Origin: Leptolyngbyaceae cyanobacterium T60_A2020_046
GTDB lineage: Bacteria > Cyanobacteriota > Cyanobacteriia > Phormidesmidales > Phormidesmidaceae
DNA length: 64,000 bases
Assembly: GCA_015272155.1 (NCBI GenBank)
Contig: JACYME010000090.1
Location: 1 to 64,000, forward strand
Direction of reading: 5' to 3'
Shown here: one piece after another, positions 48,748 through 56,262 of the stretch
How positions within the stretch are numbered: position 1 is the first letter of the stretch
Layout: every line of letters starts with the position of its first letter
Position numbers and translations under genes: made by a program
Notes under the pieces: model-generated
The model's database searches: none
The model's input: the letters and a program-made list of their open reading frames with translations, nothing else
Told to the model about the DNA's origin: nothing

Positions 48748-49224
48748 CTATTCCGGGGAGTTGATCAGGCCGGGATGATCCTGGGGGCGTGGGCCAGAGG
48801 CCGCCCAATGGAAGCGGCGATCGGCCTCGGCAATGGGGCGATCGTTGATACTGGCTTCGCGGCGGCGCATCAGTCCGCTGTCGTCAAATTCCCAGTTTTC
48901 GTTGCCATAGGCGCGATACCACTGGCCTGCGTCGTCGTGCCATTCGTATTGAAAGCGCACGGCGATGCGGTTTTCGCCAAAGGCCCACATTTCTTTGACA
49001 AGGCGGTAGTCGAGTTCTTCGTCCCATTTGCGACGCAGAAAGGCGCGGATGGCGTCTCGTCCGCGAAAGACTTCGGCGCGGTTGCGCCAAAAGCTGTCTT
49101 CGGTGTAGGCCAGGGCCACGCGATCGGGGTCGCGGCTGTTCCAGGCGTCTTCGGCCATGCGAACTTTTGCGATCGCGATGTCGCGATCAAAGGGCGGGAC
49201 GAGGGGCTTCGGCGGGGTGCCCAT
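48748..49224 (-). CDS. DUF1348 family protein (NTF2-like fold)
   Basis: 158 aa from ATG 49224 ([15 protein letters not shown]). The sequence [23 protein letters not shown], then [19 protein letters not shown] and [12 protein letters not shown] (cited in pieces), fits the SnoaL/NTF2-like DUF1348 family. These are small single-domain proteins, often of unknown function, sometimes enzymes on small polar molecules. It lies 129 bases downstream of cynS, same strand, and might be part of that unit. Confidence 0.9.
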
Positions 49225-49353
49225 GGCAAATTCTCCAAATCTCAGGAAATACCGGGTTCCAAAAGAAGCGGCTGCTAGCAAAGTGCCAACAGCCACGGTT
49301 CCGCAAACAGTGAGGGGTCAAAGGGAAACGAATCGGCGTCTAGAAACGGTGGC

Positions 49354-49794
49354 TTACCACTTCTTGTAGGGCAGGAACTTGCCACACATGATCACTTTGA
49401 CGCGATCGCCCTTGGGGTCTTCTTCCTTCTCGACATCAATGGTGAAGTCGATCGCGCTCATAATGCCGTCGCCAAACTTCTCATGAATCACGGTTTTCAG
49501 CGGCATACCATAGACCTGCATGATTTCGTAGAAGCGGTAGATCAGCGGATCCGTCGGAACCACAGGATCCAGAGAGCCCTTCACCGGATACTCTGTCAGC
49601 GCCTCAATCAAGGCTGGGTCGGCCCCAATGGCCTCGACGATTTTGGTGGCTTCTTCGACGGAGGCACTGGCCTGACGATAAAACACTGACGCAATCCACA
49701 CTTCGTCGCAGCCGACCTTGGCTTCGAGATCAGCGAAGCTGAGGCCAGCGGCCTTTTTTGCAGCCAAGAGCTGTTCAGTGATGGCGGAAGTCAT
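49354..49794 (-). CDS. cynS: Cyanate hydratase (cyanase)
   Basis: 146 aa. Decomposes cyanate with bicarbonate to carbamate, which yields ammonia and two CO2. The N-terminal helix-turn-helix-like domain precedes the catalytic domain, with R87, E90 and S113 ([11 protein letters not shown] and IMSAIDF) matching Arg96, Glu99 and Ser122 of the E. coli enzyme. The C-terminal FLPYKKW is conserved. AAGAGGA precedes the ATG at good distance. It is last in the cynA-cynB-cynD-cynS transporter-enzyme group. Confidence 0.97.
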
Positions 49795-49863: not shown

Positions 49864-50715
49864 CTAGCGACCGATGCGCGCCGCCTCCACGGCGCGGGTT
49901 TCGCGGTAGAGATGACTCTCCATCTCGGCTTTGAGGGCGTGATATTCGGGGTGCTGCTCGATGGTTTCGCGATTGCGCGGGCGTGGGAAGGGCACCTCCA
50001 GAATTTCGTCGATGCGGGCGGCGGGGCCACGGGTCATCATCACAATGCGATCGCTCAGCAACAGCGCTTCTTCGATGCTGTGGGTGATCATGATGACGGT
50101 CTTGCGCTGCTGCTCCCAAATCCGCTCCACTTCCTCTTGCAGGAAACCCCGGGTCAACGCATCCAGCGCCCCAAAGGGCTCATCCATCAGCAAAATTTGC
50201 GGGCTGATGGCGAGGGCACGGGCAATGCCGACCCGCTGCCGCATCCCGCCGGAGATCTCGTGGGGGTGCCGGGTTTCGGCCCCGGTCAAGCCCACGAGCT
50301 GAATGTGTTCCTTCACGGTGTGCTGTACCTGCTTCGGCGACAGTTTGGGATACACGGTTTCGACGGCGAAGCGGATGTTTTCCTCAACGGTCATCCACGG
50401 CATCAGCGCATAGTTTTGAAACACCATGCCGCGATCGGGGCCGGGGCCAGTGATGGGCACGCCATTCAGCAAAATTTCGCCAGAGGTGGTGGGCGACAGG
50501 CCCGCAATCATGTTCAGCAGTGTGGATTTCCCGCAGCCCGATGGCCCAATAATGGACACAAAGGTATTGGGTTCAATGTCAATGCTGATGTCTTCAATGG
50601 CGATAAAGTCGTTAGACGCTTTACCCGAGAGACGGCTAAAGAGATCCTTTTTGCCATAGAACACTTTGGTGACATTGCGGGTGGATAGCTGCGCTGAAGA
50701 AGAAAAAGTATCCAT
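49864..50715 (-). CDS. cynD: Cyanate ABC transporter ATP-binding protein
   Basis: 283 aa from ATG 50715; a GTG at 50748 overlaps the cynB stop (GTGA) and would add 11 residues, and translational coupling makes that start credible. Walker [10 protein letters not shown], signature [10 protein letters not shown] and Walker [13 protein letters not shown] are complete. It belongs to the nitrate/sulfonate/cyanate importer ATPases (NrtD/SsuB type) and is identified as CynD by its place between the permease and cyanase genes. Confidence 0.93.
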
Positions 50716-50744
50716 CGGAATCACTGGATTGATAGGAGCGACAC

Positions 50745-51584
50745 TCACGACTTTCGACCAAATGCAACAAATCTCTCAAGGGCGGAAAAAATGCTATCGA
50801 GCACTAGGCCCACCAGCCCGATAATGAAAATTGCAACCAGAATGTTAGGCAAATACAGGTTATTCCACTCATTCCAAATGAAGTAGCCGAGGCCCGTGCC
50901 GAGCAACATTTCGGCGGCCACAATCACAAGCCATGCAATGCCCATGCTGATTCGGAGACCAGACACAATGTTGGGTAGTGCAGAAGGAATGATGACTTTG
51001 AAGATCGTTCGCAGCCTTGAAGCGCCAAGGGTTTTTGACACATCTAGATAGTCCTGGCTGACGTTGGAAACCCCAAAGGCCGTATTAATCAACGTGGGCC
51101 AAATGCTAGAAATCAGGATGATGAAAACCCCGGTTTTTTCGGAATCGCGAAAGATGTAGAGCCCGAGGGGAAGCCACGCCAAGGGCGAAATCGGCTTCAG
51201 CAACTGAATGTAAGGATTGAAGCCTCGCTGGGCGATTGGAGAAATGCCGATCAAAATACCGACGGGGACGGCCACGAGGGAGGCCAAAATGTAGCCGATC
51301 GCGACGCGACGCAGACTGATCAACAAGTTCCAGCCAATGCCCAAATCGTTGGGGCCGTTGTTGAAAAAGGGATTGGTGACCCACCACCACAACTCTTCAA
51401 TGGTTTTTGAGGCGGTGGGAAACCCCCGGGCAAAGAGGCCCGATCGCGCCCCAATTTCCCACAGCAGCAGGAAGGTCACCAAAGAGCCCACAAACAACAA
51501 AAAGGCGCGGACGTTGTCGTTAAAGAAAATAGATTCGCGATCGCCCCCATAAAAGGGAAAACCGCCAGATTTACTCACTGCCAT
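50745..51584 (-). CDS. cynB: Cyanate ABC transporter permease
   Basis: 279 aa with six membrane segments. The permease-ATPase contact loop is [24 protein letters not shown] (EAA-like, cited in part), and [17 protein letters not shown]-like sequence follows, typical of NrtB/CynB/SsuC. ATG 51584 has GGAGG seven bases upstream, itself inside a hairpin with CCTCC. 212 bases separate it from cynA. Confidence 0.93.
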
Positions 51585-51796: not shown

Positions 51797-53137
51797 CTAC
51801 ACGCCGTATTCGTCGATTTGTTGCTGAACGTAGCCCTCGGGATCGCTGGGATCAAAGGGGCCAAACATCAGTTCCTCAGTGCGATAGGCATCGGTGGGTG
51901 GGGTTTGTCCCAATTCCTCGGCGAGTTCGCGCGCTAGGTCAGTGAGGAATACGTCTTTGCCGACCGTGTCATAGCCCTGCTCGGGGGTCGCCTTGGGAGC
52001 CAGCCCATCGCCCTGCAAATCCCAGCGGACAAGCTGCGACGAAATCCAGTTAGCAAAGCTCTGCCAAGGATAGGGGTCAAAGTCGATGCGGTCAGGAATG
52101 CTCAGGGTGTTGCCGTTGCCATCGTCAAAGTTGCCGGTAAGCACCGCTTCCACAACTTCCACGGGCTGGTTCAAGAAGGCGCGATCGGAGATGGCGGCGG
52201 CGATTTCCACCCGGTTGCCCGGATCGCTGGCATAGGCTGCCGCTTCGATGATGGGCTTGTTCAACGCGCGGAAAGTATTGGGGTTGGCGCTGATCCATTC
52301 GTCGCTAGCGGCAAAGGCACAGCAGGGATGCCCCGGCCAGATATCCTTCGTGAGGCGATAGATGAAACCAGCCCCTTCGTATACTGCCCGCTGGTTGAAG
52401 GGGTCGGGCATGAGCATGGCGTCGATGTCGCCCGCGATGAGCTGGGCGATGCTGTCTGGCGGGGGAACGGGACGAATCTGCACATCCACGTCGGGGTCAA
52501 TGCCGCCCGTCGCCAAGTAGTAGCGCAGCAGCAGGTTGTGCATGGAGTAGGGGAAGGGCACCCCGATGGTGAAGCCTCGGAAGTCGGCGGGGCCGTTGAC
52601 ATTGCCCTTGTGGCGCTCGGCGATGGTGATGGCCTGCCCGTTAATGTTTTCGATGCTGGCAAGCTTGACGCCAAAGGCCGCCGAGCCTAAGCCCAAAGTC
52701 ATGGCGATGGGCATGGGGGCGAGCATGTGATAGGCGTCGAGTTCACCCGCGATCGCGGAGTCACGCACTGCACCCCAGCTTGGCATCTTCACGACCGTGG
52801 CGTTGAACCCATACTTTTCGTAGAAGCCCAGGGGCTCAGACATGATGATGGGTGTTGCGCAGGTGATGGGGATGAAGCCGATTTGCAGATCGGTTTTCTC
52901 TAGCCCTTCGGTCGAAACAGGCTCCCCAGCAGGATCCGTTGCGGCGGGTTCGTTGCCGCCTGCACAGCTTGCCAAGGTGACGAGGGCCGCCCCGACCGCT
53001 ATATTGCGGAGAAACTCGCGTCGGGTTGAGTCACTGTTGCGAATCGCATCGGCGAAGAACAGCCCCGCTTGGGGGCCAAAGGCAGCGGCAAAGGCATTTT
53101 CGAGACCGCCCGCCTGCTCACAGAGGGCCAGAATCAA
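51797..53137 (-). CDS. cynA: Cyanate ABC transporter substrate-binding protein
   Basis: 446 aa. A type II solute-binding protein of the NrtA/CmpA/CynA family (LQIGFIPITCATPIIMSEPLGFY in part; GVKLASIENINGQAITIA). It starts with TTG in a TTGA overlap with the small upstream ORF. An unusual 37-residue leader precedes a twin-arginine lipoprotein signal: TRREFLRN at 38-45 and lipobox LASC at 55-58. No start codon lies closer to the signal, so the leader is probably translated. The protein should be exported folded by Tat and lipid-anchored outside the membrane. Identified as CynA from the adjacent cyn genes. Confidence 0.9.
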   Translation of the reverse strand: MILALCEQAGGLENAFAAAFGPQAGLFFADAIRNSDSTRREFLRNIAVGAALVTLASCAGGNEPAATDPAGEPVSTEGLEKTDLQIGFIPITCATPIIMSEPLGFYEKYGFNATVVKMPSWGAVRDSAIAGELDAYHMLAPMPIAMTLGLGSAAFGVKLASIENINGQAITIAERHKGNVNGPADFRGFTIGVPFPYSMHNLLLRYYLATGGIDPDVDVQIRPVPPPDSIAQLIAGDIDAMLMPDPFNQRAVYEGAGFIYRLTKDIWPGHPCCAFAASDEWISANPNTFRALNKPIIEAAAYASDPGNRVEIAAAISDRAFLNQPVEVVEAVLTGNFDDGNGNTLSIPDRIDFDPYPWQSFANWISSQLVRWDLQGDGLAPKATPEQGYDTVGKDVFLTDLARELAEELGQTPPTDAYRTEELMFGPFDPSDPEGYVQQQIDEYGV

Positions 53138-53370
53138 TTAATGGAATCTGCTGCCCGCAGTTGGTTTTGCTTGTAGAGGCCCATCTTGACCAGGTCATCG
53201 ACGAGATCAACGGGATCTTGGGGCATCGTCTGCATAAATTCCCAGTGGTCAAAGGCGGAATGTTGCCCCCCGCAAACGTTGCACATGGATTGCAGATTCG
53301 ACAGTTTTCCGTAGCTGTGACTAGCGCTTTGCCAGCCCTGAAAAGCCTGCTGTGCGGAAGTTAAAATCAT
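53134..53370 (-). CDS. Small CxxC protein translationally coupled to cynA
   Basis: 78 aa from ATG 53370 (MILTSAQQAFQGWQSASHSY). The middle holds CNVCGGQHSAFDHW: a C-x2-C-x3-H-x4-H pattern that could bind zinc or iron. The end DLVDDLVKMGLYKQNQLRA is an amphipathic helix. The TGA overlaps the TTG of cynA (TTGA), so translation of cynA should depend on it. I do not recognise it as a described part of cyanate operons. A purine-rich GGGGAAAG before the ATG is a usable ribosome-binding site. Coding potential is inferred from the coupling and composition. Confidence 0.65.
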   Translation of the reverse strand: MILTSAQQAFQGWQSASHSYGKLSNLQSMCNVCGGQHSAFDHWEFMQTMPQDPVDLVDDLVKMGLYKQNQLRAADSIN

Positions 53371-53625: not shown

Positions 53626-53639
53626 GTATTTATTGTTAC
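53626..53639. promoter_or_regulatory. NtcA-like box GTA-N8-TAC
   Basis: GTA TTTATTGT TAC is an exact match to the NtcA consensus GTA-N8-TAC, about 256 bases before the small CxxC ORF. NtcA is the global nitrogen regulator of cyanobacteria and is known to activate cyn operons. The -10 element expected about 22 bases downstream is only weakly visible. Confidence 0.7.
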
Positions 53640-53718: not shown

Positions 53719-54531
53719 CTAAGGGCGATCGCTCATCCCCTCAGACGCGGCAAACTGCTGTCGCCATGCCTGAGGTGAAACACCGTGACACTGGCGAAAT
53801 TGCCGTGTGAAATACCCTGCATCGGGATAGCCCGATCGCTCGGCAACGTGTCGAATTGGGTCAGGCGTGGTTTTGAGCAACTGACGAGCTTGGGCCATGC
53901 GACGCTCAATAATCCACCGTTTGATCGTGCGCCCGGTTTGCTCCTGCACCAAGTTCGTGAGGTAGGCCGGAGAATAGCCCGCCGCCCGGGCGACATCGCC
54001 GAGATTAATGGCTTCTCGGTAGTGGGCTTCGATGAACTGAAACACCGCCGCTAGCTTGGGACAGTCCGGGAAAATGGGATCGGCCTCGTCTGCGCTTGAG
54101 GGCGACTCGGCAGCACTGGAATCGGCAGCGCCAGAAAGGGACACCACCCCACGGGCGACTTCCTCGTGGCGCTTGAGGCGGGCCGCGATCGCGGACAAAA
54201 ATTGCTCCACAGTACAAGGCTTGGTGAGGTAGTCGTCAGCACCCAATTCCATCCCGCGCCGCAAATCAGCCATGGTCACCTTGGCGGTGAGAAAAATCAG
54301 GGGAATGGCAGCAGTCGCCTGAGATCGCCGCAACACCGACAGCACCGAATAGCCATCCATATCGGGCATCATGATGTCGCAAACCACCAAGTTTGGCTGG
54401 CAGGTATTTGCCAGGTGAATGCCCTCTGAGCCGTTCCCGGCTCCATAGGCCCGAAACCCCTCAAACTCTAAACATTTCAAAAAAACGTTGCGAGTTTGGG
54501 CTTCATCTTCAATGACAAGAATGGTTTTCAT
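53719..54531 (-). CDS. Response regulator with AraC-type DNA-binding domain
   Basis: 270 aa. Receiver domain with D52 in LVVCDIMMPDMDGY and Lys in DYLTKPCT, a Ser/Ala-rich linker (about 125-150), and a C-terminal AraC/XylS helix-turn-helix pair (about 160-262, LGDVARAAGYSPAYLTNLVQ and RHVAERSGYPDAGYFTRQFR, in part). It acts as a DNA-binding transcription regulator. Its partner is very probably the PAS kinase encoded divergently 444 bases away. It stands immediately upstream of the cyn operon, same strand; control of cyn is a reasonable guess only. Confidence 0.94.
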   Translation of the reverse strand: MKTILVIEDEAQTRNVFLKCLEFEGFRAYGAGNGSEGIHLANTCQPNLVVCDIMMPDMDGYSVLSVLRRSQATAAIPLIFLTAKVTMADLRRGMELGADDYLTKPCTVEQFLSAIAARLKRHEEVARGVVSLSGAADSSAAESPSSADEADPIFPDCPKLAAVFQFIEAHYREAINLGDVARAAGYSPAYLTNLVQEQTGRTIKRWIIERRMAQARQLLKTTPDPIRHVAERSGYPDAGYFTRQFRQCHGVSPQAWRQQFAASEGMSDRP

Positions 54532-54975: not shown

Positions 54976-56262
54976 ATGACTGAGTATTACTGGACTGCTC
55001 CCGCGATCGCTCCCCCGCGATCGCCCGCTTCAGAGCCCGTCGTTCACGAATTGGAACTGCTGCGTCGCCAGCATCGGCTGATTTTGAACGCCGTTGGCGA
55101 AGGCATCTATGGGCTCGACCTCAACGGCAACGTTACCTTTGTAAACCCAGCGGCGGCAGCAATGATCCACTGGCCCGTGGAGGAGTTGATTGGCAAATCC
55201 ATGCACGCCGTCATGCACCATACCCACGGTGATGGCAGCACCTACCCCCGCGAAGACTGCCCCATCTACCAAGCGTTTCAGGATGGCAGCACGCGCCGCG
55301 TCACCCATGAGGTGTTTTGGCGCAAGGATGGCACCAGCTTTCCGGTGGAATATATCAGTACGCCCATGCGTGACGAAGATGGGGAACTCATTGGCGCGGT
55401 GGTCACCTTTCGCGACATTACCCAACGGCGCTGGGCCGAGCAGATTTTGCAGCGCACCAACGAAGAACTGGAACTCAAAGTGCAGGAGCGTACCGCGAAG
55501 CTGCGACAGGCGAACCAGCAGTTGCGGGAACTCAGCGAAATGCGATCGCGCTTCGTGTCGATGGTGTGCCACGAATTTCGCAACCCGCTGAACAACATTG
55601 CGCTGTCGGTCTCGTCCCTCAATCGCTACGATGCGCAGCTCAGCCTCGACGAAAAAGCCGATTACCTGCGGGCCATCAGCGCCAATGTCGAACGCATGAC
55701 CCAGATGATCGACGACATTTTGGTGATTGGCAAAATTGAGGCCAAAGTTTTGGAAGTTGATCGCCAGCCCCTAGATGTGGTGACCTTTTGCCGCAAAATC
55801 CTCAGCGAACGAGAATTTCAGCGACCGGACTCACCCATCCAGTTTGAGTGTCGCAGCCGTCAGTTGGTGGCGAATTTTGATGACCGCCTGCTGCGATCGA
55901 TCCTGGGCAATTTGTTATCCAACGCGATTCGATATGCCCCTGCGGAGAAACGGATTCGGCTCAAGCTCGCCAAGTGGCAACAGCACCTCATTCTGCGGGT
56001 ACAAGACGAGGGCATGGGCATTCCTCCCGCCGATCGCCGCCACCTGTTTGAGCCTTTTCATCGGGGGCGCAATGTGAGCAACATTCCCGGCACGGGGCTG
56101 GGGCTCAGCATTGTGAAGCAGTTTGTGGATCTGCACCAGGGCGCGATCGCAGTGACGAGCCGGATCGATCACGGCACTACGTTCACGGTGCGGCTCCCGC
56201 TGGGCACCCCTGCCGCCCCCGTCCTTGGCTCAGCAAAACATCGGATGATGATAGGCGAGTAA
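54976..56262 (+). CDS. PAS-domain histidine kinase
   Basis: 428 aa, soluble. PAS domain (about 33-150: GIYGLDLNGNVTFVNPAAA, with PAC end GAVVTFRDITQRR), a coiled coil (152-190), HisKA with H199 in MVCHEFRNPLNNIAL, and HATPase with LLSNAIRYAP, DEGMGIP and GTGLGLSI. No membrane segment, so the stimulus is intracellular. Divergently transcribed from the receiver-AraC regulator, which suggests a cognate pair. Downstream lies copy B of the 68-bp repeat. Confidence 0.93.
   Translation: MTEYYWTAPAIAPPRSPASEPVVHELELLRRQHRLILNAVGEGIYGLDLNGNVTFVNPAAAAMIHWPVEELIGKSMHAVMHHTHGDGSTYPREDCPIYQAFQDGSTRRVTHEVFWRKDGTSFPVEYISTPMRDEDGELIGAVVTFRDITQRRWAEQILQRTNEELELKVQERTAKLRQANQQLRELSEMRSRFVSMVCHEFRNPLNNIALSVSSLNRYDAQLSLDEKADYLRAISANVERMTQMIDDILVIGKIEAKVLEVDRQPLDVVTFCRKILSEREFQRPDSPIQFECRSRQLVANFDDRLLRSILGNLLSNAIRYAPAEKRIRLKLAKWQQHLILRVQDEGMGIPPADRRHLFEPFHRGRNVSNIPGTGLGLSIVKQFVDLHQGAIAVTSRIDHGTTFTVRLPLGTPAAPVLGSAKHRMMIGE

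Follow-up and report, generated by a model that had tools for sequence, protein, structure and literature searches.

The cyn locus and its genes

The stretch of DNA analysed here, called the window throughout, comprises 64,000 nucleotides of the Leptolyngbyaceae cyanobacterium T60_A2020_046. Its reverse strand carries cynA, cynB, cynD and cynS in that order, with an open reading frame of 78 codons in front. The features of the locus are the following.

53134..53370 (-): most probably a 5' fragment of cynA, corresponding to residues 1-78 of the N-terminal domain (NTD) of CynA, with C30, C33, H37 and H42
53137..53139 (-): AAT at the presumed deletion junction; 67 bp are absent in comparison with all 41 aligned relatives
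53024..53137 (-): remainder of the NTD, LILALCEQAGGLENAFAAAFGPQAGLFFADAIRNSDST, the 37-residue CynA leader of a preliminary description
52964..53023 (-): Tat signal and lipobox RREFLRNIAVGAALVTLASC, by inspection of the sequence
51797..52963 (-): mature CynA, NMT1_2 (PF13379) substrate-binding domain
50745..51584 (-): cynB, permease (NtrB family)
49864..50748 (-): cynD, ATP-binding subunit (NtrCD family)
49354..49794 (-): cynS, cyanase
48748-49296 (-): gene for a DUF1348 protein (PF07080, SnoaL-like), after cynS
53626..53639 (-): NtcA-like half-site pair GTAACAATAAATAC, not significant by its count and without conservation in near relatives
53719..54531 (-): AraC-type response regulator; many relatives have it upstream of cynA
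54976..56262 (+): PAS histidine kinase, paired divergently with the AraC-type response regulator

The CynA reading frame of 446 residues (51797-53137) starts at a TTG codon that overlaps the stop of the 78-residue frame as TTGA. It has 37 to 38 residues ahead of the twin-arginine motif RRxFL, and no ATG, GTG or TTG lies nearer to the twin arginine. The preliminary description had seen all of this correctly, as well as the position of the 78-residue frame at the head of the cyn operon, and had read it as a separate small protein translationally coupled to cynA. It had also pointed to the pattern C-x2-C-x3-H-x4-H in the small frame, which is indeed present; the pattern arises in 16 of 200,000 shuffles of the 78 residues and is, therefore, no effect of composition.

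CynA of the window matches PF13379 with an E-value of 3.1e-73, placing it among the NMT1_2/NMT1 proteins, and its gene forms an operon with cynB, cynD and the cyanase gene cynS, whose orthologues in named relatives are mostly 83-92% identical. The Tat signal and lipobox are recognized by inspection and are kept in relatives, with a TIGR01409 score of 14.8 against a cut-off of 16.7. As judged from its domain, operon and Tat signal, the protein is a cyanate-type substrate-binding protein of the CmpA/NrtA family.

The NtcA-like box that had been proposed for the operon exists as a perfect half-site pair about 255 bp upstream of the 78-residue frame, but it is at chance level (two such boxes in the window versus 2.0 expected) and is not conserved in the nearest relatives. 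Upstream regions of relatives contain such boxes in 25 of 94 cases versus 9.8 expected, a moderate enrichment that stems largely from outside this family; the evidence linking the operon to NtcA is weak. The AraC-type response regulator and the divergent PAS histidine kinase accompany the cyn operon in 42 of the 76 cyanobacterial loci examined and are a candidate two-component system for cyanate or nitrogen. Genes for DUF1348 proteins occur near cyn genes in 28 of the 76 loci, and the protein of the window is 63% identical to those that Bosea and Loktanella encode within or adjacent to their cyn operons (L212:4579-5064; L214:6856-7320), which suggests a link of DUF1348 with cyanate metabolism across phyla.

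A 67-bp gap within CynA

A search of public genomes with the 78 residues returned 31 named loci with 47-76% identity. Within the same family, 50 of 59 genomes match the 78 residues, nearly all in open frames of about 540-590 codons. In each of the 41 alignable relatives, the homologous stretch is the in-frame N-terminus of CynA, and the open frames that hold it are 544-583 residues long by alignment. CynA of these relatives, of about 545 residues, consists of 138 residues followed by a Tat-lipoprotein signal and the cyanate-binding domain. The relatives read on in frame from the 78 residues through NAYELRKALFLKRVGRGDPKREK and LILALCxQAGGLENAFAAAFGPQAG...TRREFLRNMAVGAALVTLASC to the substrate-binding domain. 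Alignment of the DNA locates the difference exactly: all 41 homologues have 23 codons where the window has 2 nt, a gap of 67 bp, and the missing codons encode NAYELRKALFLKRVGRGDPKREK, residues 78-100. The breakpoints would fit a deletion between 3-nt AAT/AAT microhomologies, provided that the lost lysine codon was AAA, as it is in some relatives.

A loss of 67 bp shifts the frame, so that the 78-residue frame, which ends at a TGA produced by this frame change, the TTGA overlap and the 37-residue leader are all by-products. The residues of this leader are present as described, but they constitute the other end of the same NTD, parted from the first by the loss. The window holds the motif and lacks residues 78-100, with the frame broken, and the 78-residue frame does not represent a family of stand-alone small accessory proteins, as the stretch is fused in all intact relatives. 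It is most probably the 5' part of cynA, cut off by the 67-bp loss within the NTD. The assembly, which is 99.86% complete, contains neither an intact second NTD nor the missing segment elsewhere. Nine near-invariant positions are deleted inside the gap, while all 41 outside it are kept; there is thus no visible decay, and the break is either recent or an error of the assembly.

The same part of cynA is split by independent frameshifts in two other genomes, one Synechococcus elongatus-like (L150) and one Pseudanabaena-like (L151), the latter probably a true Pseudanabaena. In the first (L150:2075-3668), one extra base in a run of G, near 2336-2346, parts an NTD frame of 123 codons from a CynA frame of 451 codons with an internal ATG start. 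This locus sits on a chromosome of 2,696,255 bp, which we take to be that of S. elongatus PCC 6301, a near-identical relative of PCC 7942. In the second (L151:2010-3679), one missing base leaves an NTD frame of 90 codons with an ATGA overlap with the internal ATG of CynA. Both loci keep the metal ligands, the Tat signal and the cyn genes intact. Three lineages seem to keep CynA although their NTD is split, so that either CynA does not strictly require the NTD in cis or these genes are failing.

It is quite possible that the 67 bp were lost only in sequencing or assembly and that the organism itself has an intact cynA with the missing codons. The source assembly is a draft in 250 contigs; every conserved position outside the gap is kept, and the remaining genes of the cyn region are unbroken. 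On the other hand, a clean 67-bp loss with AAT microhomology looks like an ordinary deletion, and nearby splits occur in genomes that consist of a single contig.

Somewhat unlikely is a real fission, in which coupled translation (at TTGA here and at ATGA in L151) yields both the NTD fragment and the Tat-bearing CynA, with an NTD that either acts in trans or can be dispensed with. With the frame shifted, the Tat-signal-bearing CynA of the window could start only at the overlapping TTG, and it would be made, if at all, by termination and reinitiation at TTGA, with the pieces of the NTD separate. TTG is a weak start and has no clear Shine-Dalgarno site before it, and the gap takes out part of the conserved second half of the NTD. 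What speaks for a fission is that the two other independent splits keep the metal ligands, the Tat signal and the downstream cyn genes. Furthermore, on the secondary account given in PMC4390861 (citing Maeda and Omata 2009), S. elongatus PCC 7942 has a functional cyanate/nitrite transporter in CynABD; this bears on the split only if PCC 7942 shares the frameshift of L150, in which case a split NTD does not abolish uptake.

Rather unlikely is a third possibility, namely that the split marks the start of the loss of the cyanate transporter in this strain. Decayed remnants of the NTD, with no intact CynA match, lie near cynS in two genomes (G120 L152, G151 L153) and appear to be traces of transporter loss with the cyanase kept; a decayed copy occurs also in G103 L115. 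In the window, however, CynA, CynB, CynD and CynS are otherwise open and conserved. As reinitiation at TTG is still possible, the operon could be functional in spite of the severed NTD or could be failing, or it could be intact in the living organism. The separate, translationally coupled metal-binding protein of the preliminary description, with its own start and stop, TTGA overlap and metal motif, is extremely improbable, since this reading frame is separate only in frameshifted relatives and fused to CynA in all intact ones, and the 67 bp are missing exactly at the junction.

Conservation and distribution of the NTD

A profile of 22 NTDs was compared with 390 genomes of Cyanobacteriia and detected the domain in 144 of them, representing 70 of 159 genera. 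Homologues outside the strain, the existence of which had been left to be checked, are thus frequent. Cyanase (PF02560) is found in 256 of the 390 genomes, among them 138 of the 144 with the NTD (Fisher P 2e-25). A search for the CynA binding domain at E <= 1e-80 in 60 of the 118 genomes that have cyanase but no NTD gave no match, while genomes that do hold CynA score 1e-182 or better with a closely overlapping query. Hence, each CynA found in the examined cyanobacteria came with the NTD, whole or split, and a CynA that begins directly at the Tat signal was not encountered among these 60. When 386 genomes from across the phylum were scanned in addition, the NTD turned up in 30, all of the same class. 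The domain is also present in small-genome lineages of marine type (1.7 Mb; L108, L118). The gene neighbourhoods, recorded as the preliminary description had suggested, show cynB, cynD and cynS adjoining the gene for NTD-bearing CynA in most loci examined.

A few genomes hold additional NTD-bearing substrate-binding paralogues, which lie in tandem with the cyn operon or close to it (L112:4329-8102, L129:3190-4902, L019:10554-12170) or stand alone (L111:4652-6268). In a genome with cyanase and without CynA, a short NMT1-like protein (L170, G069:C1:595251-596354) starts with MIHPPFCQCCGLSRRQFLK, where a cluster of Cys immediately precedes the twin arginine.

The four ligand positions are well kept among 136 distinct sequences where the residue is aligned: C in 111 of 125, C in 123 of 129, H in 122 of 130 and H in 131 of 132. 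As a whole, the pattern C-x1-2-C-x3-H-x4-H is retained in about 90% of the copies of the NTD, with C/H variants in most others. Of 127 sequences that are long enough, 72 have C-x2-C-x3-H-x4-H, 42 have C-x-C-x3-H-x4-H and five, from small-genome, Prochlorococcus-like organisms, have C-x-C-x2-C with a later His; seven miss the motif, several of these being matches cut at the motif. An exchange of Cys for His is typical of structural metal sites. The pattern of ligands suggests that the site holds a metal, most likely zinc. Further near-invariant residues (MP..P, D, M-G-x-Y, A-G-G and A-A-F-G) are located in or near predicted helices.

No family of Pfam or NCBIfam matches the NTD, only sub-threshold hits under varied names, and a comparison with PDB sequences gave nothing significant. 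A first structure model was poor (pLDDT 62). A second, built for the NTD alone from 86 sequences, is all-helical with a pLDDT of 72 and a pTM of 0.38, and Foldseek found nothing for it in the PDB at E <= 0.001. Zinc knuckles of the CCHC/CCHH type, with C-x2-C-x4-H-x4-C, resemble the C-x2-C-G-x2-H-x4-H spacing of the NTD, but the latter has no match in Pfam, NCBIfam or the PDB; membership of a known zinc-finger or zinc-knuckle family was considered and rejected, as no curated family model matches. The NTD of CynA is thus a real conserved domain, and apparently an undescribed one. Of the conserved accessory module for cyanate uptake that had been envisaged, the conserved Cys/His domain and its tie to the cyn genes stand, while the separate protein does not.

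CynABD of S. elongatus has the same substrate-binding domain, the same cynA-B-D-S operon and a Tat signal with lipobox. The NTD of 138 residues that the CynA precursors have here, split in the window, is not described in the literature found on CynABD. For picocyanobacteria, predicted cyanate transporters are not yet functionally validated (PMC8786288). NrtA and CmpA, the nitrate- and bicarbonate-binding lipoproteins, belong to the same substrate-binding family as CynA and share the Tat signal; those of S. elongatus and of a Pseudanabaena-like genome have no more than about 20 residues ahead of the twin arginine and are without the motif, as are the nitrate-binding proteins of Klebsiella and Sphingobium.

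A similar arrangement is seen in proteobacterial CynA proteins (Methylobacterium, Bosea, Caballeronia, Loktanella and another rhodobacterial plasmid), which are encoded in cynABDS operons and have a substrate-binding part that is 50-55% identical. Their leaders (L211:3219-3392, L212:3216-3395, L213:3201-3389, L214:3192-3389, L215:3198-3389) extend 58-66 residues before the twin arginine and contain CxCG or CxC, usually followed by His, as in GGCSCGAHASQAAH, RGCTCGRHESQDAH, GGCACGQHASQSEH and ADCGCHSC. After the motif comes a short helix-like stretch, AVxRxLFP or VExAVMRALFP, before RR. In comparison with the cyanobacterial NTD, these leaders are half as long and lack the PQDP...MGxY region. 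Profile comparison of the two gave a probability of 26% (P 7e-4), and the cyanobacterial A2 profile detected none of the proteobacterial leaders. A common origin is suggested by the resemblance, but with such weak profile support a module shared across phyla is only a lead. CxCG is also found in substrate-binding proteins of Moraxella and related organisms without an adjacent cyanase, and a substrate-binding protein of Acetobacter that occurs with cyanase shows weak resemblance only.

Possible roles of the NTD

Proteins leave by the Tat pathway in the folded state, with the n-region of the signal remaining on the cytoplasmic side, and lipoproteins are cleaved before the lipobox Cys. An intact precursor would present a cytoplasmic NTD, with C-x(1-2)-C-x3-H-x4-H and then helices, ahead of the Tat-lipoprotein signal and the NMT1_2 domain. 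With a lipobox at the end of the Tat signal, the NTD should stay cytoplasmic and be removed together with the signal peptide at lipoprotein maturation. Any action of the NTD would therefore be cytoplasmic and would precede or accompany export. The fragment of NTD and signal may stay behind after cleavage.

The likeliest role for the NTD, proposed only tentatively, is that of a metal-binding pre-domain that controls the folding, export or hand-over of CynA. Stabilized by zinc or another metal, it would have a cytoplasmic binding partner, be it the newly made CynA precursor, a chaperone or a regulator, and it may thereby gate the folding of CynA, its export by Tat or its hand-over to CynBD. That the NTD is regulatory towards CynBD or PII is an unlikely alternative. 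It is more speculative still, and quite unlikely, that a dedicated Cys/His module ahead of the Tat signal senses, across phyla, cyanate (for example by carbamoylation of a thiolate), a metal or the nitrogen state and gates the export of CynA or the activity of CynBD. Such a module could be the missing target of the PII-dependent inhibition by ammonium to which CynABD of S. elongatus PCC 7942 is subject (PMC4390861; PMC6603209). If this is true, repeated gene fission would free the sensing module as a regulator. Bolder, and a long shot, is the idea of a thiol sensor that reacts with cyanate.

The NTD is expected to be absent from the mature protein and splits in it are tolerated, as would suit a mere long n-region of the Tat signal without any function of its own. 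This is improbable in view of the invariant Cys/His and helix residues across 70 genera, the lack of an NTD in the sister proteins NrtA and CmpA, and the similar motif in proteobacterial CynA leaders.

The NTD is widespread in cyanobacteria and unnamed in the libraries searched. It is easily overlooked, since an annotation, whether by program or by eye, may place the start of CynA at the Tat signal or, as in the window, take the N-terminal piece for a protein of its own. For a substrate-binding protein to carry a conserved putative metal-site domain that is expected to stay behind in the cytoplasm is unusual, and it points to a step of control over cyanate uptake prior to export. The NTD is a testable candidate for the control of CynABD, which has been left open in the literature (PMC4390861, PMC6603209).
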